Assembly (NCBI GenBank): GCA_900128585.1 | Contig: LT642165.1 | Coordinates: 1 to 33,553 of the forward strand | Length of the DNA stretch: 33,553 bases | Reading direction: 5' to 3' | Source: Stramenopiles sp. TOSAG23-3 | Lineage: Eukaryota > Sar | Shown here: positions 15,038 to 24,794 of the stretch, piece after piece | How positions within the stretch are numbered: the first letter of the stretch is position 1 | Layout of the letters: each line of letters starts with the position of its first letter | Made by a program: the position numbers and the translations under genes | The notes under the pieces: generated by a model | What the model saw: only the letters and a program-made list of their open reading frames with translations | The model's database searches: none | What the model was told of the DNA's origin: nothing

Positions 15038-16817
15038 CTATTTCTCACATCGCAATCCTTTCCCATCATAGGCTCCGTCCACAACGGCTACCCATACCCC
15101 TCGATTGCTGTCGTATATTGCATCGAGATGGTGCATCAACTTTTCATTCCACGAACCAGGATCGTTGCTTCCTTCGAGAACTGGCAGGCCGCCATTCAGC
15201 AACGTTTCCTTGTAATCATACGGCGTTAGCGTAAGTATTATATTTGCGTACAGCTTACTTCCATATTTCGGCTCTGCGCTCTGCGAAAAGCGTATCAGCC
15301 CCGTCCCTTTGTGATCGGCTGTCTGGATAATTCTTCCTCCAAGTCGACCACGAGTACAACTCTCTGAAAGATGCGTCACCGGGCTATGGGGATGCTCAAC
15401 GTAGGGCCCGCGTAAAGAATCGGAAACATACAGCCGCTGCCGCCATTCATTTGGTTGCATCGCAGTGGTTGTGAACAGATACCAATGCTCGTCATGTTTG
15501 ACTAAACCAGTGTCCTGGTACCAGGCACCTTCGAGTAACGCGTGAGAAAATTTCCAACCGAAAGGAAATTTATTCGATTTGGTCTGGTACAGTCTGACGC
15601 TATCCGATTTATGCGCCTCGGGTATCATGTAGCACATGTCATTTTCGCAAAACGTGTATGGAAAGCTCAAGTGAAACGTTTCTTCAAGGGCTGCTCCGAG
15701 GTACGTCCAAGAGACCCCCACGTCTTTGCTGACAGCAGCACCAATAAAACCGCGGAAGGCCATGTCCAAAGACTCAAAAAGCATGTAAATGTGACCATCC
15801 AAAGGACCAATCTGCAAGAATGGGTCGGCGACGAAGAGAGAAGGGATGTCATAAATATCGCCTACCTGAATGACAGGATTTTTTGGGGAGGTGGTGTCCA
15901 AGAATCCGCAACCAGTTTCTATTTTGAAGCGGTCGTCCTCCTCCATCGGGCGAAGGGATTCCAGCCTGTCTCCAAAATACATCCCTATGGACCAATCGCC
16001 TTGGTCGTGCCGGCTCACGTTTCGTTCGAACATACACGTTTTGGCACGGTGCTGCTTGGGGGGCAGGTACATATATTGAGATACATCTGCCACGAATGAT
16101 TCTGTGTGAAACTCTAACACGTTTTGATGAGCCCCTTTATATTGCTTTGCGCAACTATCACCGATGCATATAAGGATGGAGTAAGTCTCGATAGACCATT
16201 CAGATACCGGCCAACTGGGCACATGGGAAAAGTCAATAAACACTTTTGGCAGTGTAAGTTTAGCAACATGCCGCAGAAAAGCGGTTAAATAGTCAGCTGA
16301 ATGCCGAAATGTACCCACAGCAATTATACAATCTTGACTTTGAAAATGTCGTAAAACTGCATCGGGCACTGTAATACTTGGGTTTGTTTCAGGGTTTGAA
16401 ATGCCACCCTTAATGTCATGAAAGTGGGCGCGATAGCCCTTGGTCCGTACATACATAATTTGTGCCATCTGCAATCAGCACAATCACAGGAGAGGTGTCT
16501 TGCTCATATAATGACAACATATAACGCACTTCATGAATAAAAATATGGCGGCTCACGCTCTCTTCGGCGCACCCATCCCTATTTACACCGAGAGCAATGA
16601 CATCCCAGCCCCCCATTTTTGTCGGTGGAATGAATGTAGGGGAAGTTTGCACTGACACACCGCCGGAAGCAGCAAGCAGCAAAGACAGATTGTTTAGACT
16701 TTCACATGTTTTACAGTGATGTACCAAAACAGAAATCGCATGTTTATTTTCCGCAAATGTTTTATAACATGTACATGCTAGCTGAAGAAGAAAAACTATA
16801 CGGCGAAGAGTATTCAT
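15038..16817 (-). CDS. GINT1-N-like beta-propeller secretory protein, reading frame broken once
   Basis: Two overlapping minus-strand frames together make one protein. The upstream frame starts at ATG 16815-16817 with a signal-like MNTLRRIVFLLQLACTCYK and runs to about 16450. The downstream frame starts near 16474 and ends with TGA-less AEK-type tail ...GLRCEK at 15038. A one-base (or minus two) shift is needed between them. The C-terminal half resembles the N-terminal domain of plant glucosamine inositolphosphorylceramide transferase (GINT1): DPFLQIGPLDGHIYMLFES, SWTYLGAALEETFHLSFPY, MCYMIPEAHKSDSVRLY, WYLFTTTA, LRGPYVEHPHSPV and YGSKLYANIILTLTPYDYKE. The GT64 catalytic domain of GINT1 is absent, so transferase activity is doubtful. 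A secreted or Golgi sugar/glycolipid role is inferred. The break may be a 4-bp duplication, a tiny intron or a sequence error. Confidence 0.7.
16449..16487 (-). other. Frame-shift site in the GINT1-like gene
   Basis: Two explanations fit. A tandem ATGTATGT (minus strand; plus-strand ACATACAT 16449-16456) could be a 4-bp duplication; dropping one unit reads ...ADGTNYV-RTKGYRAHFHD without a break. Alternatively GTGATTGTGCTGATTGCAG (16469-16487) is a 19-base GT...AG stretch whose removal also joins the frames, giving ...QDTSP-MAQIMYV. The first keeps a hydrophobic strand, VIVLIADG, that looks like genuine protein. Confidence 0.5.
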
Positions 16818-17528: not shown

Positions 17529-20500
17529 TTACACAGTCAAATGGATAGTCGTGGTCTTGCTAGGGGACCCAAGGCCAGTTTCTTCTGTTTGATTACTTCC
17601 TGGAGCCTGGGATTGAATTTTTTTCAGCCCAAATTTCCCCTCTTCCTCATCACACTCGGGACAAAGCCACGCAGCCCCAGTCTCGGCAATTTTTTTTGCT
17701 CGCGCGACTGGCAGACCGACGCACTTCGGGTGGAACCAGTTTTCGCAATTTTCACACCCCAGCCAGAACGAACCTTTATCATCGGTCTCGGGAATCTGGC
17801 AAAGGCAATACTTGACTGGGCCCTTACTTTTAGGCCCCTTGATTTTCAGAGTCATTGGAGACGCTGGCAGAGGGGCTGCTTCTGCTTGGTCTTTCGCAAC
17901 AACTTTAATACGGGACGAGCGACGAGCACCACGAAGGACAGATGATTCTTCCAGTTCTTTTCGGCGCTGTTCTCTGGCTTCTTCATCCAAACGCTTCTTC
18001 TCTTCCTTTGCTCGTTTTTTTTCCTGTGCTTCTTCCCATTTTGCCCTCACTTCACTTTCGACCCGTTCTTCCTCTTTGCGGGCACGTTCTTTGGGGCGAT
18101 GTTCGGGGCAGAGATACGCAGAGGTTCCCGCTGCAAAGCCCCATCCCGTTTCGACAGCGCATGAAACATGAACGCTGTTACTACACTTGCCGACCAGGCA
18201 GCCGATCGTTGCGCCACGTTTACCACATTGGGGCAAGAAACATTTGATCTTTCTCCCCCTCTTTACTTCTTCGATGACCATACAGTAGTGAGACATATGA
18301 TCGACAAATACTTGCGGGCATAAATCGGCACAAGCTCGGTGAACCCACATGTATTCTATCACAGAACCGTCTTTTTTCTTCTTCACAACAAAAGGATGGT
18401 TCATAAACGGTCCTGGAATACCCTCGATGGAGTGTCCTTTGTTACAAAAGGCGCACAATTTATCCAAACCATCTTTTTCAACCGTCAAAGAAGTGTCTAC
18501 CGGATCGCTCTTGTCAGGCAACTCTTTTTTTGCCTTTTTACGCCCTCGTTTTCCGGCACCTGCGTCATCACTACTGTAATCCTCGTCCGAACTGGTTTCT
18601 TCCTCGGAACTGCTTTCTTCCGAGCTGGTTTCTTCTTCCCCCGAATCATCAACTCCTTCGTCAATCTCTGCGTACCCATGTTTCGGTCGCTTGACCTGCC
18701 GTGAACTTTTCCGACGTGCAACACCAGCTTCTTCTAGCTTCTGCCGTTTCGATGGGGGGCGCCCCGGTTTCTTTCCAGATCCAGGTTTCCTCCCGGGTTT
18801 TTTCCCCCAACGAAATGTGCGCCCATCCTCAAAGTGCTTTGGGCACACCATGCAGTTCCGATTTAAACGCAATGAATGTTTTTTGTCGCAACATGCCTGG
18901 TGGTAAGAGTCCGCACAACGCATACATTTTAATAGTTGGTTGTTACCAGTATCCGCATTACAAGATCTACACCGGTGCAGCGGACAATTAAAAGCCGACA
19001 TGCCTTCTTTTCCGCGCCACTTCGTGCATTCGTCTTCTTGCAGACATTTGGCATGATAAAACCGACCACACTGGGGACGAGCACAGAGAAATACCGCATC
19101 TTTCGGAGGCAAACCTTTGATCAAATGAGGGGGCGCATCTTTTCCAACTGTGCCGCACAGAGTGCATAAATGCTGTTTGCTCGTGCAGTCAGGGCACAAC
19201 CACGAGTCGCCTTCGGGCAAAGTTTCCAAGTTCACACATTTGGCGTGGAAAGTTCGCATACATGGGCCATCGCATATCAGCAACTGCCCACCGTCGAGAC
19301 ACAGTGCACAAAAATCGTTGTACACTTTCGTGGCTCGTTTCTTTTCCCGGTTCTTCCCCGGCTTTCTCCCCGGTTTTCTCCCAGGCTTCCGGCGCGTTGG
19401 ACCCCAGAACTCATCGTCGTCGTCATCGCTTTCAGATTCTTCCTTCTTGGCTGCATCTATGTTCGAAGCAGCACGGCTGGGTCTATTCCGCAGCCTGGTC
19501 CCTTCCATAGACTTCAACCAGAACGCTGCAGCGTTTGTGTCAGCTTCAGTGAATGTAGACTTCATGCAGGACACCTGCAGCACAAGTTTTTTGCATGTTT
19601 CCCATTCTGATGGACTTACATCATCTCCGTTTTGTTTTGCTTGCAATAGTTCGTCGACAAGCTCTGTAAGGTTACCCAAAAACTCCTTTTTCTTCTCTTC
19701 GGATTCAATTGCAGAGCCATCATTAAGCCTAGACATAAGCTCACGGGCAGACCGTACCCCCGGCATCACCAGATTCCAAAAATTTGGATCGTCCACGTCA
19801 ATGGTAGTGTCCGCTTCCGCCGAAGTAAATGTGTGCTTCGAGCTGGTATTGGCCGATGACACAAAACCATCCGCTTCCCCATCTTTATACACTATTTCCC
19901 GTGACCGTGTACTCAAAATGTGCTCAATGGTAGCCTCGCTAAATTCTCTACTGTCGTTATTGTCCAGCATTGCAAATGCCCCCTCTTTCAAAAGCCTTTC
20001 TAGCTCTTGGGCTTCTTCCTTTTTGTTTCCAGACGGCATCGCCCCTTCTCGGTTGGTCCCAAAAACACTACTGTCTCCGTGGGCAGTTCCGGACATAACA
20101 GCACGTTCCAGACCTAACTTAATGCTGGCCTTGTGGAACATCTGTGCCTCGTAGGACCGTCTAGTAATCAAACGGTAAACCGTTACCTCTCTCGTTTGAC
20201 CGATTCGGTGGCACCTTGCCAGGGCCTGAAGATCGTTTTGAGGGTTCCAATCACTATCATAAATGATAACTGTGTCGGCTGCCGTTAAATTTATCCCTAC
20301 ACCCCCTGCGCGAGTGGACAGTAAAAATGCGAAAGTTTGAGGGTCTGAATTGAAGCGATCGATGGATAGTTGCCGTTCATGTCCGTGTACAGAACCATCT
20401 AACCGCTCATGTGCGTACCCACGTCCATTCAAGTAGTTTCCTAAAATGTCCAACATGATTTTGAATTGCGAAAATATCAAAACTTTATGGCCCTCGCTGC

Positions 20501-23500
20501 GAAGCTTGGGTAAAAGCTTGTCTACAAATACTAGTTTCCCACAACAGTCAACCATCCGTTGAAGCTTGGCCCTCCAAACTCTTTCGTCGTGTATTTTTTG
20601 GGCTACAGCAACTTTCTCGGTGAGCTGCTTCAGCTCACTCGCGTAATCCACACGCTTCGCCATTTCATCTTGTTGCCCTTCGGACGGAACGAGGTCCGCG
20701 TTTTGCAACAGCTGGCGATTTAGATTGTCTATGCGGTGCAAGCGACTGCGAAGTTTCTGCAGCCTTTTTTTCATCGATGAGATGGACCCTCCAATAGTTT
20801 TATCGTCTTTTGCGCCTGAGGCGCCGCCACTTCCTAATTCCAACCATTCCACCGGCAGTTCGGGCAGCTTTGCAAGAACGTCGTCGAACTTTTTTCTCGC
20901 AGTGTTAGCTACCCATTCGCCATACAAATCCTCAAATTCATCCAACAACCTTTCGGCGTTTTCTGCAATTTCTGACCCTTCAGCATTGTATTGAATACAG
21001 TTTCTGAAAACCAAGCGCATATCTTTTGCAAATTTCGTGTGTTGTCCAAAGTAATGTTCTTTATCGCCTTTCATCCCTTTCAATCGAGCATATACTGTTG
21101 ACAAATCCATCGGTCGACGAATAACTCGATGGTAGTCTGGAACCACTTCAGGGTCTACAGGAAGCAGAAAAGGCCATGCCATATCTTTGTCAGCCAATCT
21201 TCTGAGCACAACTTCACAACCAGGCATTTCTACAAAGCTTGAATTTGATACACGTTTACGACGCTGGATAATTGAATCCTGGCGGTGCTCGTAAGTTTCG
21301 TCCTCTCGCTCGGCTTTTTGAATCAAAAATGCTTTCCACCGAAATTCGGTATTAACAGAAGGGTTGATCGGGCGCTGGGGTGCCACTGGGTAGTCGGTAA
21401 AGGACAAAGATTTTTTCGTAAACCAATGGACATAATGTGCAGTACATAACATACGAGGCCCCCAAGGGCCGCGGTTGAAATTTGAGGCTTCCCGAGCCCC
21501 ACAGTATCTACACCAATCTCCCTCGTAATCATCGTAAAACGATGGTTCGATATGTTCCACGATAATTTCCAGGGGTCCCCGCTTAACTTTTGGTTTTTGC
21601 GCAGGTTCTGGCTTCGCATCTTGTTCCGATTTGGCTTGCTCCTCACTCCCAGCCGAAGTCTCGCCCTGTTCGCTCCTCCCCATCACCGTTTCGTCGCTGT
21701 CGTCAAGATGCCCCTCCGCTAGAGCCTGCGCCAAAGCCAACGCCTCTTCATCGTCAAGGGCCGATAGTTGTTTCATAGATATGCCTTTATCAACTGCTTC
21801 CTGAATTCTCTCTTCCTCTCTGGCTTCAACTCCCTCAATCAAAAATGGATGATTGCAGCATTTTCGCAACTGCATATCAACATTCAGCAAGGCAGGCACG
21901 TTTCCGTGACAACCATGGTACAAAAACTCGCGGTTTTTATCAAATATTGCACGATAGTACTGTTTTTGCAATGTAGTCAATTCCACATCAATAATGGTTT
22001 CTTGCCTCGGCGGGATAGCAGTTTCCACTTCGTGCTTTAGCCGGCGCAATATGTGGGGACCCATAACATTGCGAAGCTTCTCCACGCCCTCACTTCCGGT
22101 TACAGTCCCGTACTCTTGCAAAAAATATGCTTCCGAACGAAATTCGCTGGGTTGGACAAAGTTCAGAAGTGCCCACAACTCACTTAGATTGTTCTGGATT
22201 GGGGTTCCTGTCAGCAACAACCGGTGGTCGGCACGTATGTGCGGTGGTCGTAAGTGCTCTGACAACTTCGACCGGGGATTCTTCAGCCGGTGCCCTTCAT
22301 CTACTACGATACTTTGCCAGGTGAAAGATCCAATGTGAACAAGATCTAACAGGACTGTCTCATACGTGGTCAACAGAATGTTGAATTTGCTGACAGTGCG
22401 ACTAGTTCTAAGTTTTGCAGAATCATTGTAGCGCCACTCATGTTTGCGAATAATTTCTCGCCCTTTTGCCCCACCAGTCTGGTCATAGTACACGCATAGG
22501 TTCATGTCAGTCCATGATTCTATTTCCCTTTTCCAATGCCCAATGGTCGACAGCGGTGCAACAATTAAGAATGGGCCACGAATTTGCTCCACGGCTCGCA
22601 GATGTTCCAGCATGGTTACCACTTGGCAGGTTTTTCCAAGACCCATCTCGTCTGCCAAAATACAGCCACGCTGACCGTACCAGTTTTTCAGAACCCAGTT
22701 AACCCCTTGGACTTGATAGCCTCGCAGCTGCAAGTTGCTCTTATAGACTGGGCTAGTTTTGTAGGGCACAAATCGTTTCAACATGCTGTTCGCAACCCCA
22801 TCGTAATCGGAAGGGTCGGCACCATCGTCATTTTCGTCTTCTGGGTCCTCATCGCCAAATGCAGATTTCAATTTCCGATCATGGTAGTACACATTTTGCT
22901 GCGTGTTTTCATTAGTCCCATCCCAAACGTAGTTTCCGTCATCCCCGTTTCCAGAATGCACTATTTCCCAGCCTTCCGGGGCAGATGAGAGAAGCTGCAC
23001 TTCATCCACAAGACGGGACACAGAAATTGCAACATCTTTAGAAACGCCCAGGGGCAAATCTAGCAACCACGCCGGGAGGTCTGCCAGTTCTTCGGCCTTT
23101 TCCTTGCTTCGTTGTTTTGCCTTTTTCCTCTGGTAGGCAGAACTTCTGGCTTTCTGGAGAGAGGTCTTGTATATCGTTGGGGGGGTCTGAAATATTCGAA
23201 ATCGACTAACTTTCAAGTCGTCGTTTATATCCTCTTCGTACTCCCACGTTGCCTCTTTGTAGGAACGGTCTTTCCATTTCACCAGGAACATAGAGCGCTC
23301 TCTACGATTTTTTCTCTTATTTGCGCGCCCCTTTTGGCCAAAGTTTTTCTTTAACACCCTGGCGGGGCGTTCAAAAATCATCGTCATTGGCCTCGATTGC
23401 TTCCCTACCGAGTTGACAACCTTCCCCAAGCTAGTATGCCCAACGGGAGTTTCCGTATCTCCTACCATGACGCAGATATCCCCTGGCTGTATCTTGGCTC

Positions 23501-24794
23501 TCTCGTGGCTGTCGATGTCAATCCTAAACTTGAACTCATCGTCAATATCTTGGCAGATAACGTACTTTCCCCCGCCATCGACAGCGGAACGCCGCTTTTC
23601 TGTCAATATCAAGCCCAACCGACCGCCTCTGAATGTTACCTCGTAACGGACAGGCGCATTTTCCTCTCCTTCAACACTGCCCGCTTCGCCACTTTGCCCC
23701 TCCGTCGTTGCAGTGGGTTGTGGGCCACTGTCTTCGTAAACAGTTTTTTCAGAAATAATACGGTCGATCTTAACGAGATCAGGATCCACGTTCCCGTTCC
23801 ATTTGTCCTCCCCCTCCTCATCTACTAGCCTATCAAACTGTTTCAACATACCGTGGTGCCTGGTGGATATTTCCGTCTGCGAAAAGAGTTCTTCGTACGA
23901 ATACCACTTTACGTGTAAATACGATTTCCCCGAGAGTTTTACGCAATATTCCACTTGTCCTAATTCATTCAAACGCCTTCCCACGTACTTCTCTACTTTC
24001 GGCCTGTCTTCATCATTATCATCTGCGTACCTGTGGCGCCTTTCCGCGGCACTGTTGGAGTGTTTTGCTCCATACGAGGTAGCGGGCGCGGGGTTGCTCT
24101 TTGTTCCTTTTTTGTTTTTCGAACCTTTTGGTCTTCCCCTGCCTTTGGCTTTAGTCCTTTTCTTCGAGCCGTGCATTTCGTCGTCGGACGACTCTTCGAA
24201 TTCCCCGTCATCGAAGTCGTCGGTGTAGGTGACCCGCTGTTTTCCCCGACTTCTTGCCGAGCGGCGAACGCCTTGCTCCTTAACTTCTTTGATGATTTTT
24301 GCATCTGTCTTGGAGTTGAACGCTACGAATTCTTCATCTTTGTGGCCGGGTTGGACTTCTGTGCTCCCATATTCCACTTTTTTCTTCTTTTTCACGGGCC
24401 AAGAGTCGCGGTAGCTATCAGTTTCTTCCTCCTCTAGATCTTCTTCCAACATACGCTTTTTTCGTTCTGACTCTGTTTTCTTTCGGATTTTTCTCTCTAG
24501 TGCCTCCTGCCTGTCCCTTTCTACAAGATGCAACGGCCGGGCCTTGCCACCGTTCAGCTTCTTTTGTTCATAATACCTCTTGCTCTGCTCCAATCGCTTT
24601 TTCGCGAGTTCAATTTCTTCGGGGGTCATGCCAGCATATAAATCGTTTCCGTCGTCGGCGTGACTCTCACCCCCTTCTTGTCCGCCTGCTGCAACTGTAC
24701 CAGTCGTCCCCAATGCAGCAGGTTGAACCCCGCCCTTTCCAAGAACGACCGCCTCGCTGCCACCCGACGACCCCGCGCTTCCACCATTTTCCAT
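17529..24794 (-). CDS. Giant CHD-like SNF2 chromatin remodeller with chromodomains, PDZ-like, GATA-like, bromo and PHD modules
   Basis: One uninterrupted frame from ATG 24792-24794 gives 2,421 residues, longer than most CHD proteins. Order: basic/acidic N-terminus with an AT-hook-like GRGRPKG (218-224); chromodomain 1 (268-325); start of chromodomain 2 (VKIDRIISEK, 341-350); PDZ-like domain (about 383-476: GRLGLILTEK, IQPGDICVMVGD); rest of chromodomain 2 (MFLVKWKDRSYKEATWEYEE, 502-521); SNF2 lobe 1 (ADEMGLGKT 714-722, DEGH 832-835, LLTGTPIQNN about 859-868); GATA-like finger (C1095, C1098, C1117, H1120); bromodomain (about 1190-1295, Asn1270); helicase lobe 2 (1430-1550, ending in ARCHRIGQT). 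Then come AT-hook-like KPGRKPGRKPG, PHD fingers (about 1828-1872 and 1876-1990), a Ser/Glu tract, an extended PHD (about 2114-2232) and a last PHD (about 2329-2382). The protein should slide or eject nucleosomes in response to methyl- and acetyl-lysine marks. Confidence 0.95.
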   Translation of the reverse strand: MENGGSAGSSGGSEAVVLGKGGVQPAALGTTGTVAAGGQEGGESHADDGNDLYAGMTPEEIELAKKRLEQSKRYYEQKKLNGGKARPLHLVERDRQEALERKIRKKTESERKKRMLEEDLEEEETDSYRDSWPVKKKKKVEYGSTEVQPGHKDEEFVAFNSKTDAKIIKEVKEQGVRRSARSRGKQRVTYTDDFDDGEFEESSDDEMHGSKKRTKAKGRGRPKGSKNKKGTKSNPAPATSYGAKHSNSAAERRHRYADDNDEDRPKVEKYVGRRLNELGQVEYCVKLSGKSYLHVKWYSYEELFSQTEISTRHHGMLKQFDRLVDEEGEDKWNGNVDPDLVKIDRIISEKTVYEDSGPQPTATTEGQSGEAGSVEGEENAPVRYEVTFRGGRLGLILTEKRRSAVDGGGKYVICQDIDDEFKFRIDIDSHERAKIQPGDICVMVGDTETPVGHTSLGKVVNSVGKQSRPMTMIFERPARVLKKNFGQKGRANKRKNRRERSMFLVKWKDRSYKEATWEYEEDINDDLKVSRFRIFQTPPTIYKTSLQKARSSAYQRKKAKQRSKEKAEELADLPAWLLDLPLGVSKDVAISVSRLVDEVQLLSSAPEGWEIVHSGNGDDGNYVWDGTNENTQQNVYYHDRKLKSAFGDEDPEDENDDGADPSDYDGVANSMLKRFVPYKTSPVYKSNLQLRGYQVQGVNWVLKNWYGQRGCILADEMGLGKTCQVVTMLEHLRAVEQIRGPFLIVAPLSTIGHWKREIESWTDMNLCVYYDQTGGAKGREIIRKHEWRYNDSAKLRTSRTVSKFNILLTTYETVLLDLVHIGSFTWQSIVVDEGHRLKNPRSKLSEHLRPPHIRADHRLLLTGTPIQNNLSELWALLNFVQPSEFRSEAYFLQEYGTVTGSEGVEKLRNVMGPHILRRLKHEVETAIPPRQETIIDVELTTLQKQYYRAIFDKNREFLYHGCHGNVPALLNVDMQLRKCCNHPFLIEGVEAREEERIQEAVDKGISMKQLSALDDEEALALAQALAEGHLDDSDETVMGRSEQGETSAGSEEQAKSEQDAKPEPAQKPKVKRGPLEIIVEHIEPSFYDDYEGDWCRYCGAREASNFNRGPWGPRMLCTAHYVHWFTKKSLSFTDYPVAPQRPINPSVNTEFRWKAFLIQKAEREDETYEHRQDSIIQRRKRVSNSSFVEMPGCEVVLRRLADKDMAWPFLLPVDPEVVPDYHRVIRRPMDLSTVYARLKGMKGDKEHYFGQHTKFAKDMRLVFRNCIQYNAEGSEIAENAERLLDEFEDLYGEWVANTARKKFDDVLAKLPELPVEWLELGSGGASGAKDDKTIGGSISSMKKRLQKLRSRLHRIDNLNRQLLQNADLVPSEGQQDEMAKRVDYASELKQLTEKVAVAQKIHDERVWRAKLQRMVDCCGKLVFVDKLLPKLRSEGHKVLIFSQFKIMLDILGNYLNGRGYAHERLDGSVHGHERQLSIDRFNSDPQTFAFLLSTRAGGVGINLTAADTVIIYDSDWNPQNDLQALARCHRIGQTREVTVYRLITRRSYEAQMFHKASIKLGLERAVMSGTAHGDSSVFGTNREGAMPSGNKKEEAQELERLLKEGAFAMLDNNDSREFSEATIEHILSTRSREIVYKDGEADGFVSSANTSSKHTFTSAEADTTIDVDDPNFWNLVMPGVRSARELMSRLNDGSAIESEEKKKEFLGNLTELVDELLQAKQNGDDVSPSEWETCKKLVLQVSCMKSTFTEADTNAAAFWLKSMEGTRLRNRPSRAASNIDAAKKEESESDDDDDEFWGPTRRKPGRKPGRKPGKNREKKRATKVYNDFCALCLDGGQLLICDGPCMRTFHAKCVNLETLPEGDSWLCPDCTSKQHLCTLCGTVGKDAPPHLIKGLPPKDAVFLCARPQCGRFYHAKCLQEDECTKWRGKEGMSAFNCPLHRCRSCNADTGNNQLLKCMRCADSYHQACCDKKHSLRLNRNCMVCPKHFEDGRTFRWGKKPGRKPGSGKKPGRPPSKRQKLEEAGVARRKSSRQVKRPKHGYAEIDEGVDDSGEEETSSEESSSEEETSSDEDYSSDDAGAGKRGRKKAKKELPDKSDPVDTSLTVEKDGLDKLCAFCNKGHSIEGIPGPFMNHPFVVKKKKDGSVIEYMWVHRACADLCPQVFVDHMSHYCMVIEEVKRGRKIKCFLPQCGKRGATIGCLVGKCSNSVHVSCAVETGWGFAAGTSAYLCPEHRPKERARKEEERVESEVRAKWEEAQEKKRAKEEKKRLDEEAREQRRKELEESSVLRGARRSSRIKVVAKDQAEAAPLPASPMTLKIKGPKSKGPVKYCLCQIPETDDKGSFWLGCENCENWFHPKCVGLPVARAKKIAETGAAWLCPECDEEEGKFGLKKIQSQAPGSNQTEETGLGSPSKTTTIHLTV

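Follow-up and report, generated by a model that had tools for sequence, protein, structure and literature searches.

A bromodomain and a GATA-like C-C-C-H zinc finger between the two motor halves of a stramenopile SNF2 remodeler

The stretch of DNA analyzed here, 33,553 nucleotides long and hereafter called the window, is contig LT642165.1 of the Stramenopiles sp. TOSAG23-3 assembly (GCA_900128585.1). Its minus strand, to which all window coordinates below refer, encodes a chromodomain-type SNF2 remodeler of 2421 residues in one open frame (17529..24794), identified from the open reading frame and Pfam. The motor of this protein consists of a SNF2-rel_dom half (residues 693-984, 21843..22718; Pfam 1.8e-77) and a Helicase_C half (residues 1421-1532, 20199..20534; Pfam 7.8e-25), and all the catalytic residues that we checked are present, namely K721 of the GKT motif, D832 and E833 of the DE box, and R1527 and R1530 of motif VI. 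With the first Pfam match ending at 984 and the second beginning at 1421, the original prediction was right to place an insert between the two motor halves. The insert opens with an acidic linker (residues 990-1078, 21561..21827; 23 acidic and 11 basic residues out of 89), delimited by its composition, its poor conservation in the alignment, and its low predicted local distance difference test (pLDDT) values in a model of motor plus insert. There follow a C-C-C-H GATA-like zinc-finger domain of about 79 residues with a conserved C-terminal extension (residues 1080-1158, 21321..21557), defined by a 12-member alignment and the models; a predicted helix leading from the finger to the bromodomain (residues ~1150-1182, then a loop to 1192; 21219..21347; secondary structure in both models); the bromodomain (residues 1193-1281, 20952..21218); and a predicted helical hairpin between the bromodomain and lobe 2 (residues 1334-1412, 20559..20795; from the model and composition). 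Finger and bromodomain both lie between the motor halves, where Pfam scans of the whole protein and of insert slices found no further domain. The presumed zinc ligands C1095, C1098, C1117, and H1120 (21435..21512), assigned from the sequence and alignment, show in the translation the C-x2-C-x18-C-x2-H spacing that had been claimed, and the codons of C1095 (21510-21512), H1120 (21435-21437), and Asn1270 (20985-20987) lie where they had been placed. The bromodomain with Asn1270 is complete, as had also been claimed (Pfam 2.5e-20; 72.7 bits against a cut-off of 21.7).

Two insert-query searches yielded 18 and 23 proteins, the second count including its own query; they scored just 7985 and 7994 candidates, those sharing the most words with the query, and relatives absent from the results therefore prove little. 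Eight distinct proteins found have a SNF2 domain, and five of these (P0002, P0003, P0004, P0020, and P0021) carry the finger and the bromodomain between the motor halves. Measured from the CNHP/CQHP motif to the GK motif, the step is 439 residues in P0001, 434 in P0002, 449 in P0003, 443 in P0004, 583 in P0020, and 572 in P0021. The remaining three (P0018, P0023, and P0024) lack this arrangement, their bromodomains being located before or after the motor and the step at the site being 44, 49, and 49 residues. One of them, P0018, combines within 3854 residues a bromodomain, chromodomains, a SNF2 motor, a GNAT acetyltransferase domain, a CW finger, and Tudor repeats. A further protein of 232 residues, P0044, consists of the finger and a sub-threshold bromodomain start (18.7 bits against 21.7) with no motor, and was excluded from the remodeler count.

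Across residues 1065-1350, the five relatives are 43-74% identical to the window protein (P0002 210/284, P0003 177/286, P0004 121/279, P0020 126/281, and P0021 124/281). In the same order of relatives, identities are 69/79, 64/79, 39/77, 42/77, and 42/77 in the finger; 66/87, 57/89, 48/88, 47/88, and 48/88 in the bromodomain; 40/74, 33/78, 19/57, 22/82, and 26/81 in the acidic linker; 49/90, 44/89, 17/88, 17/90, and 16/90 in the hairpin region; and 255/292, 233/292, 180/291, 120/198, and 125/212 in SNF2_N, where the last two values lack the motor start because the P0020 and P0021 sequences begin inside the motor. Since segment identities are higher for the two domains, finger and bromodomain are by this measure under more constraint than the segments that connect them. 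All six insert-bearing proteins, that is, the window's and its five relatives, keep Asn1270, which we take to be the acetyl-lysine Asn, Tyr1221, presumably the ZA-loop Tyr, and the four ligands. Because both domains occupy the same position in these five relatives, with all of these residues kept, conservation makes an intron or a sequencing accident very unlikely as the source of the insert. In two of the five, the insert also holds a methyl-CpG-binding domain ahead of the finger (residues 277-329 of P0020 and 287-340 of P0021). In a tree of bromodomains, the six insert bromodomains group together at 90/91, which falls short of the threshold set by the tool, and the tree does not resolve which bromodomain outside the group is closest to them. 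This tree was built from 57 of the 80 domain rows found, including seven loci from the window's genome, after leaving out 13 fish isoform proteins (P0026-P0038), stretches shorter than about 60 residues or with E > 0.01, and identical stretches.

The ligands are C, C, C, and H in 12 of 12 aligned members of the finger family, a pattern that, judging from this alignment, is more than chance; the 12 sequences also have in common W-C-R-Y-C-G, P-W, L-C-x-x-H, and, further on, N-T-E. The likeness to GATA fingers that had been pointed out stands in part. An hhalign comparison of the finger profile with a profile of seven GATA segments gives a probability of 80 (E 1.4e-5, score 26.35) over 24 columns that end just past the third ligand, and when all but the ligand columns were shuffled, 0 of 100 controls reached this score (mean 11.7, SD [standard deviation] 3.1, highest 23.47). 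Against solved structures, the best match of the finger profile is GATA18, which has the same x18 spacing, at a nonsignificant E of 0.27. As single sequences, however, these fingers stay below the Pfam GATA cut-off of 26.8 bits: for PF00320, the window's finger gives E 0.072 on a 443-residue insert slice and E 0.005 (16.9 bits) on a 67-residue slice, the whole-protein scan has no GATA match at E <= 1, and the finger of P0043 reaches 18.2 bits. A true GATA-family finger was thus rejected, on the Pfam cut-off and on the His that replaces Cys as fourth ligand. The resemblance to GATA fingers such as GATA18 (8j48) covers the C-x2-C-x18-C core, which spans ligands one to three, and the finger is best described from its sequence as GATA-like but outside the GATA family. 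In GATA fingers, the N-A-C-G stretch has a role in DNA recognition. Because this stretch is missing here, binding to GATA sites is not expected.

What this finger is instead is a member of a separate family that recurs elsewhere. PF00320 has three matches in the window's genome assembly (12.9 Mb in 660 contigs), none above the cut-off and two of them the finger and its paralogue, so that the assembly offered no conventional GATA protein for comparison; light-harvesting proteins likewise had no match in it, which makes a photosynthetic alga less likely, although the assembly may be incomplete. A six-frame search of the genome with the finger-bromodomain cassette gave eight matches. Apart from the window's own match, a single one includes the finger. 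It lies in a gene on contig C653 (L010, 533-1831) with a 432-residue frame, P0040, in which the same C-C-C-H finger is followed by a long charged tail. The start of P0040 weakly matches a MORC2 chromo-like domain (0.0087, under the Pfam cut-off), and a search with this protein found six finger-bearing proteins, itself among them. Outside remodelers, the finger stands with an ARID domain in P0043 and after weak Tudor/chromo-like matches in P0040 and P0041, company that fits a chromatin role. It appears to represent a domain family still lacking a name, for which a separate profile is warranted.

Structure prediction renders each of the two domains confidently in only one of two models. In the model of the insert alone, pLDDT block means are 81-92 for the finger (1085-1164), 41-58 for the bromodomain, and under 50 from 1175 onward; in the model of motor plus insert, they are 57-88 for the bromodomain and just 35-56 for the finger, with an overall predicted template modeling score of 0.36. 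The relative placement of the domains is thus not readable from either model. Both show a helix at about 1118-1126 over the His ligand and another at about 1150-1180. The motor-plus-insert model predicts the hairpin as two helices (1334-1364 and 1381-1418) with block means mostly of 68-82. In Foldseek, the 50 rows listed for the insert model were all bromodomains with low TM-scores, led by BPTF (3uv2; E 2.2e-4, 38% identity). For the GATA fold, this comparison yields little, the fold lists being filled by bromodomain or motor and the finger being confident in one of the two models.

The remainder of the protein places it among CHD remodelers in the broad sense, with a chromodomain (residues 494-530, 23205..23315; Pfam Chromo 8.3e-10, over the cut-off) N-terminal to the SNF2 motor; a first chromodomain leaves only a weak Pfam trace (E 0.0087). 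Ahead of the chromodomain, a possible PDZ-like domain (23325-23672, within residues 375-490) is sub-threshold (PDZ_6 0.17; a cold-shock model 0.03). After the motor come a PHD cluster (residues 1827-1987, 18834..19316; PHD-1st_NSD, PHD_NSD, and PHDvar_NSD, each over its cut-off), an extended PHD-like domain (residues 2146-2232, 18099..18359; zf-HC5HC2H_2 at 28.4 bits against a cut-off of 27, zf-HC5HC2H under its own), and a last PHD finger (residues 2331-2381, 17652..17804; Pfam PHD, best stretch). The CHD3-5 (Mi-2) subgroup has a pair of PHD fingers ahead of its chromodomains; in a Pfam scan of the whole window protein, the best PHD stretches lie solely after the motor, which sets it apart from that subgroup. 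No RING was found by Pfam in the protein or in insert slices, so it is not of the Rad5/SHPRH kind either. The closest PDB sequences are CHD1 (9ear_W) and CHD4 (6ryr_W), for the whole protein and the SNF2 half alike; for lobe 2 alone, lymphoid-specific helicase comes first and Chd1 next among the matches listed. Elsewhere in the window, 15041-16474 encodes a protein matching the N-terminal domain of glucosamine inositolphosphorylceramide transferase 1 (1.4e-50).

To compare the insertion point with other SNF2 motors, the two motor halves were aligned separately to PDB chains (best 60 of 74 and best 60 of 80 rows). CHD1 and CHD4 resemble the window protein in having a chromodomain ahead of the motor but have only 4 residues (9ear_W, 776 to 781) and 18 residues (6ryr_W, 1029 to 1048) between the two matches, where the window protein has 414 on the CHD1 alignment (995 to 1410) and 426 on that of CHD4. 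Large inserts at the same alignment point are found in INO80 (7zi4_G, 826 to 1096; 8euf_Q, 1020 to 1291) and SRCAP (6igm_H, 908 to 2041), and in the fold comparison, too, the matches to INO80 and SRCAP chains extend across the insert; for SWR1, the first-half match stopped early and the insert start was not located. INO80 and SWR1 are reported, in the part of the source available, to have in common large inserts that part the two ATPase domains and are intertwined with a RuvB-type hexamer (PMC7445562). The window's insert differs in holding a bromodomain and a zinc finger. SHPRH offers a second precedent, with the order SNF2_N, linker-histone fold, PHD, RING, and Helicase_C in the excerpt available (PMC6702750); because a PHD stands there, a reader-type finger between motor halves already exists. 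Like Rad5/HLTF, SHPRH shares with the window protein zinc-binding domains between SNF2_N and Helicase_C but differs in its RING and ubiquitin-ligase activity, and no bromodomain is listed for it. The original prediction set the bromodomain between the lobes against the usual position of bromodomains in remodelers, outside the motor; the bromodomain is indeed conserved at this place, but for the site itself the INO80, SRCAP, SWR1, and SHPRH inserts are precedents.

Two other SNF2 proteins of the same genome illustrate both conditions. The one on contig C424 (L029, 1979-5866) has a RING (1045-1092) between its SNF2 stretches and a Helicase_C starting at 1131, an N-terminal zf-PARP, and no bromodomain that we could find, and the second chromodomain remodeler, on contig C468 (L027, 946-7116; Chromo 1.5e-17, SNF2 638-927, Helicase_C 957-1068), carries no insert, its step at the site measuring 32 residues. 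This latter protein also shows a weak PHD match (501-546, under the cut-off) just ahead of its best chromodomain stretch (568-599). By comparison with a published table, seen in part (PMC4030286), oomycete protein B (PITG_10083; [PDZ, QLQ], two Chromo, SNF2, Helicase_C, PHD, and PHD-like) is near the window's plan, a likeness suggestive of a stramenopile though no proof of one, with no bromodomain listed, and protein D (PITG_03401) has its bromodomain listed ahead of the motor. BPTF is a non-motor subunit. It resembles the window's insert in linking a zinc domain to a bromodomain, but this zinc domain is a PHD rather than a GATA-like finger. We take the window's insertion point to be what is called the "major insertion site," which lies behind protrusion 2 of lobe 2; on that assumption, the insert would project from lobe 2 and not from the cleft. 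Protrusion 2 is described in the available part of a study of Chd1 as sitting in lobe two (PMC6118821).

The architecture, the position of the insert, and the conservation of pocket and ligand residues are established from the sequence. For the function of the insert, we favor, with moderate confidence, a tethered nucleosome reader over the direct coupling of acetyl-lysine binding to motor closure that the original prediction had put forward. The bromodomain would bind acetyl-lysine on histone tails, and the finger would supply an extra contact with chromatin, through DNA or protein, that is not classical reading of GATA sites. The cassette would hang from lobe 2 by the helical hairpin and from the first motor half by the flexible acidic linker; on the latter side, a tether is argued for because the 89-residue linker is poorly conserved and of low confidence. 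So attached, the cassette would mainly increase residence on, or selection of, acetylated nucleosomes during motor engagement, and would not be a rigid switch for lobe closure, much as inserted RING or RuvBL-binding parts give other SNF2 motors added functions. A reader cassette is supported because the pocket residues are kept, the finger is constrained, and the finger keeps chromatin company elsewhere.

We think it unlikely, by comparison, that the insert is chiefly a protein-docking platform as in INO80 and SWR1, in which finger and bromodomain would serve mostly to recruit other subunits, whether acetylated or not, into a complex. The shared insertion point with INO80, whose insert is reportedly entwined with the RuvB-type hexamer (PMC7445562, seen in part), speaks for docking, and the finger, being present in non-motor proteins, may therefore be a shared docking module. 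However, pure docking would not need the acetyl-lysine pocket residues that are kept in 6/6 proteins, and no further domain turned up in Pfam scans of the insert. A direct allosteric gate, in which acetyl-lysine binding shifts the lobe-to-lobe geometry via the helical hairpin and switches the ATPase on or off, strikes us as rather improbable. The predicted hairpin (1334-1364, 1381-1418) leads directly into the beginning of lobe 2, movement could therefore be passed on, and a predicted helix links finger to bromodomain; to this extent, the modeled hairpin leaves coupling or gating possible. Yet the opposite side is the 89-residue linker of low confidence and poor conservation, the hairpin region is itself among the least conserved parts (16/90 to 49/90 identical across five relatives), and the RING of Kluyveromyces lactis Rad5 is reported, in the excerpt available, to have little contact with the motor (PMC7804152). 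Equally doubtful is the boldest reading, under which a lineage of protist remodelers would have kept adding readers to the motor itself, namely a bromodomain, a C-C-C-H GATA-like finger not described before, and, in two members, a methyl-CpG-binding domain, with the result that acetylation, and in those two DNA methylation, would directly gate ATP-driven DNA translocation. We consider an artifact, whether from intron retention, from a join made in assembly, or from a mistaken gene model, very unlikely, since against a source assembly of 660 contigs and a single match to the donor-like pattern GT[AG]AG[TG] within residues 985-1420 stand the same domain order in five other proteins, a reading frame open throughout with no in-frame stop, and the membership of both inserted domains in known or recurrent families.

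The known readers of remodelers mostly sit outside the motor or belong to partner subunits, and in the literature that we searched (titles and abstract starts, among the matches listed) no description of a bromodomain between SNF2 lobes was found. With the insertion site known and each domain of a known or nearly known kind, it is the combination that appears to be new. A conserved acetyl-lysine reader inside a SNF2 motor would show that the site used for RING and RuvBL-binding inserts also accepts readers of acetyl marks, and would allow the question of whether a histone mark can control a motor from inside to be studied in a single chain.
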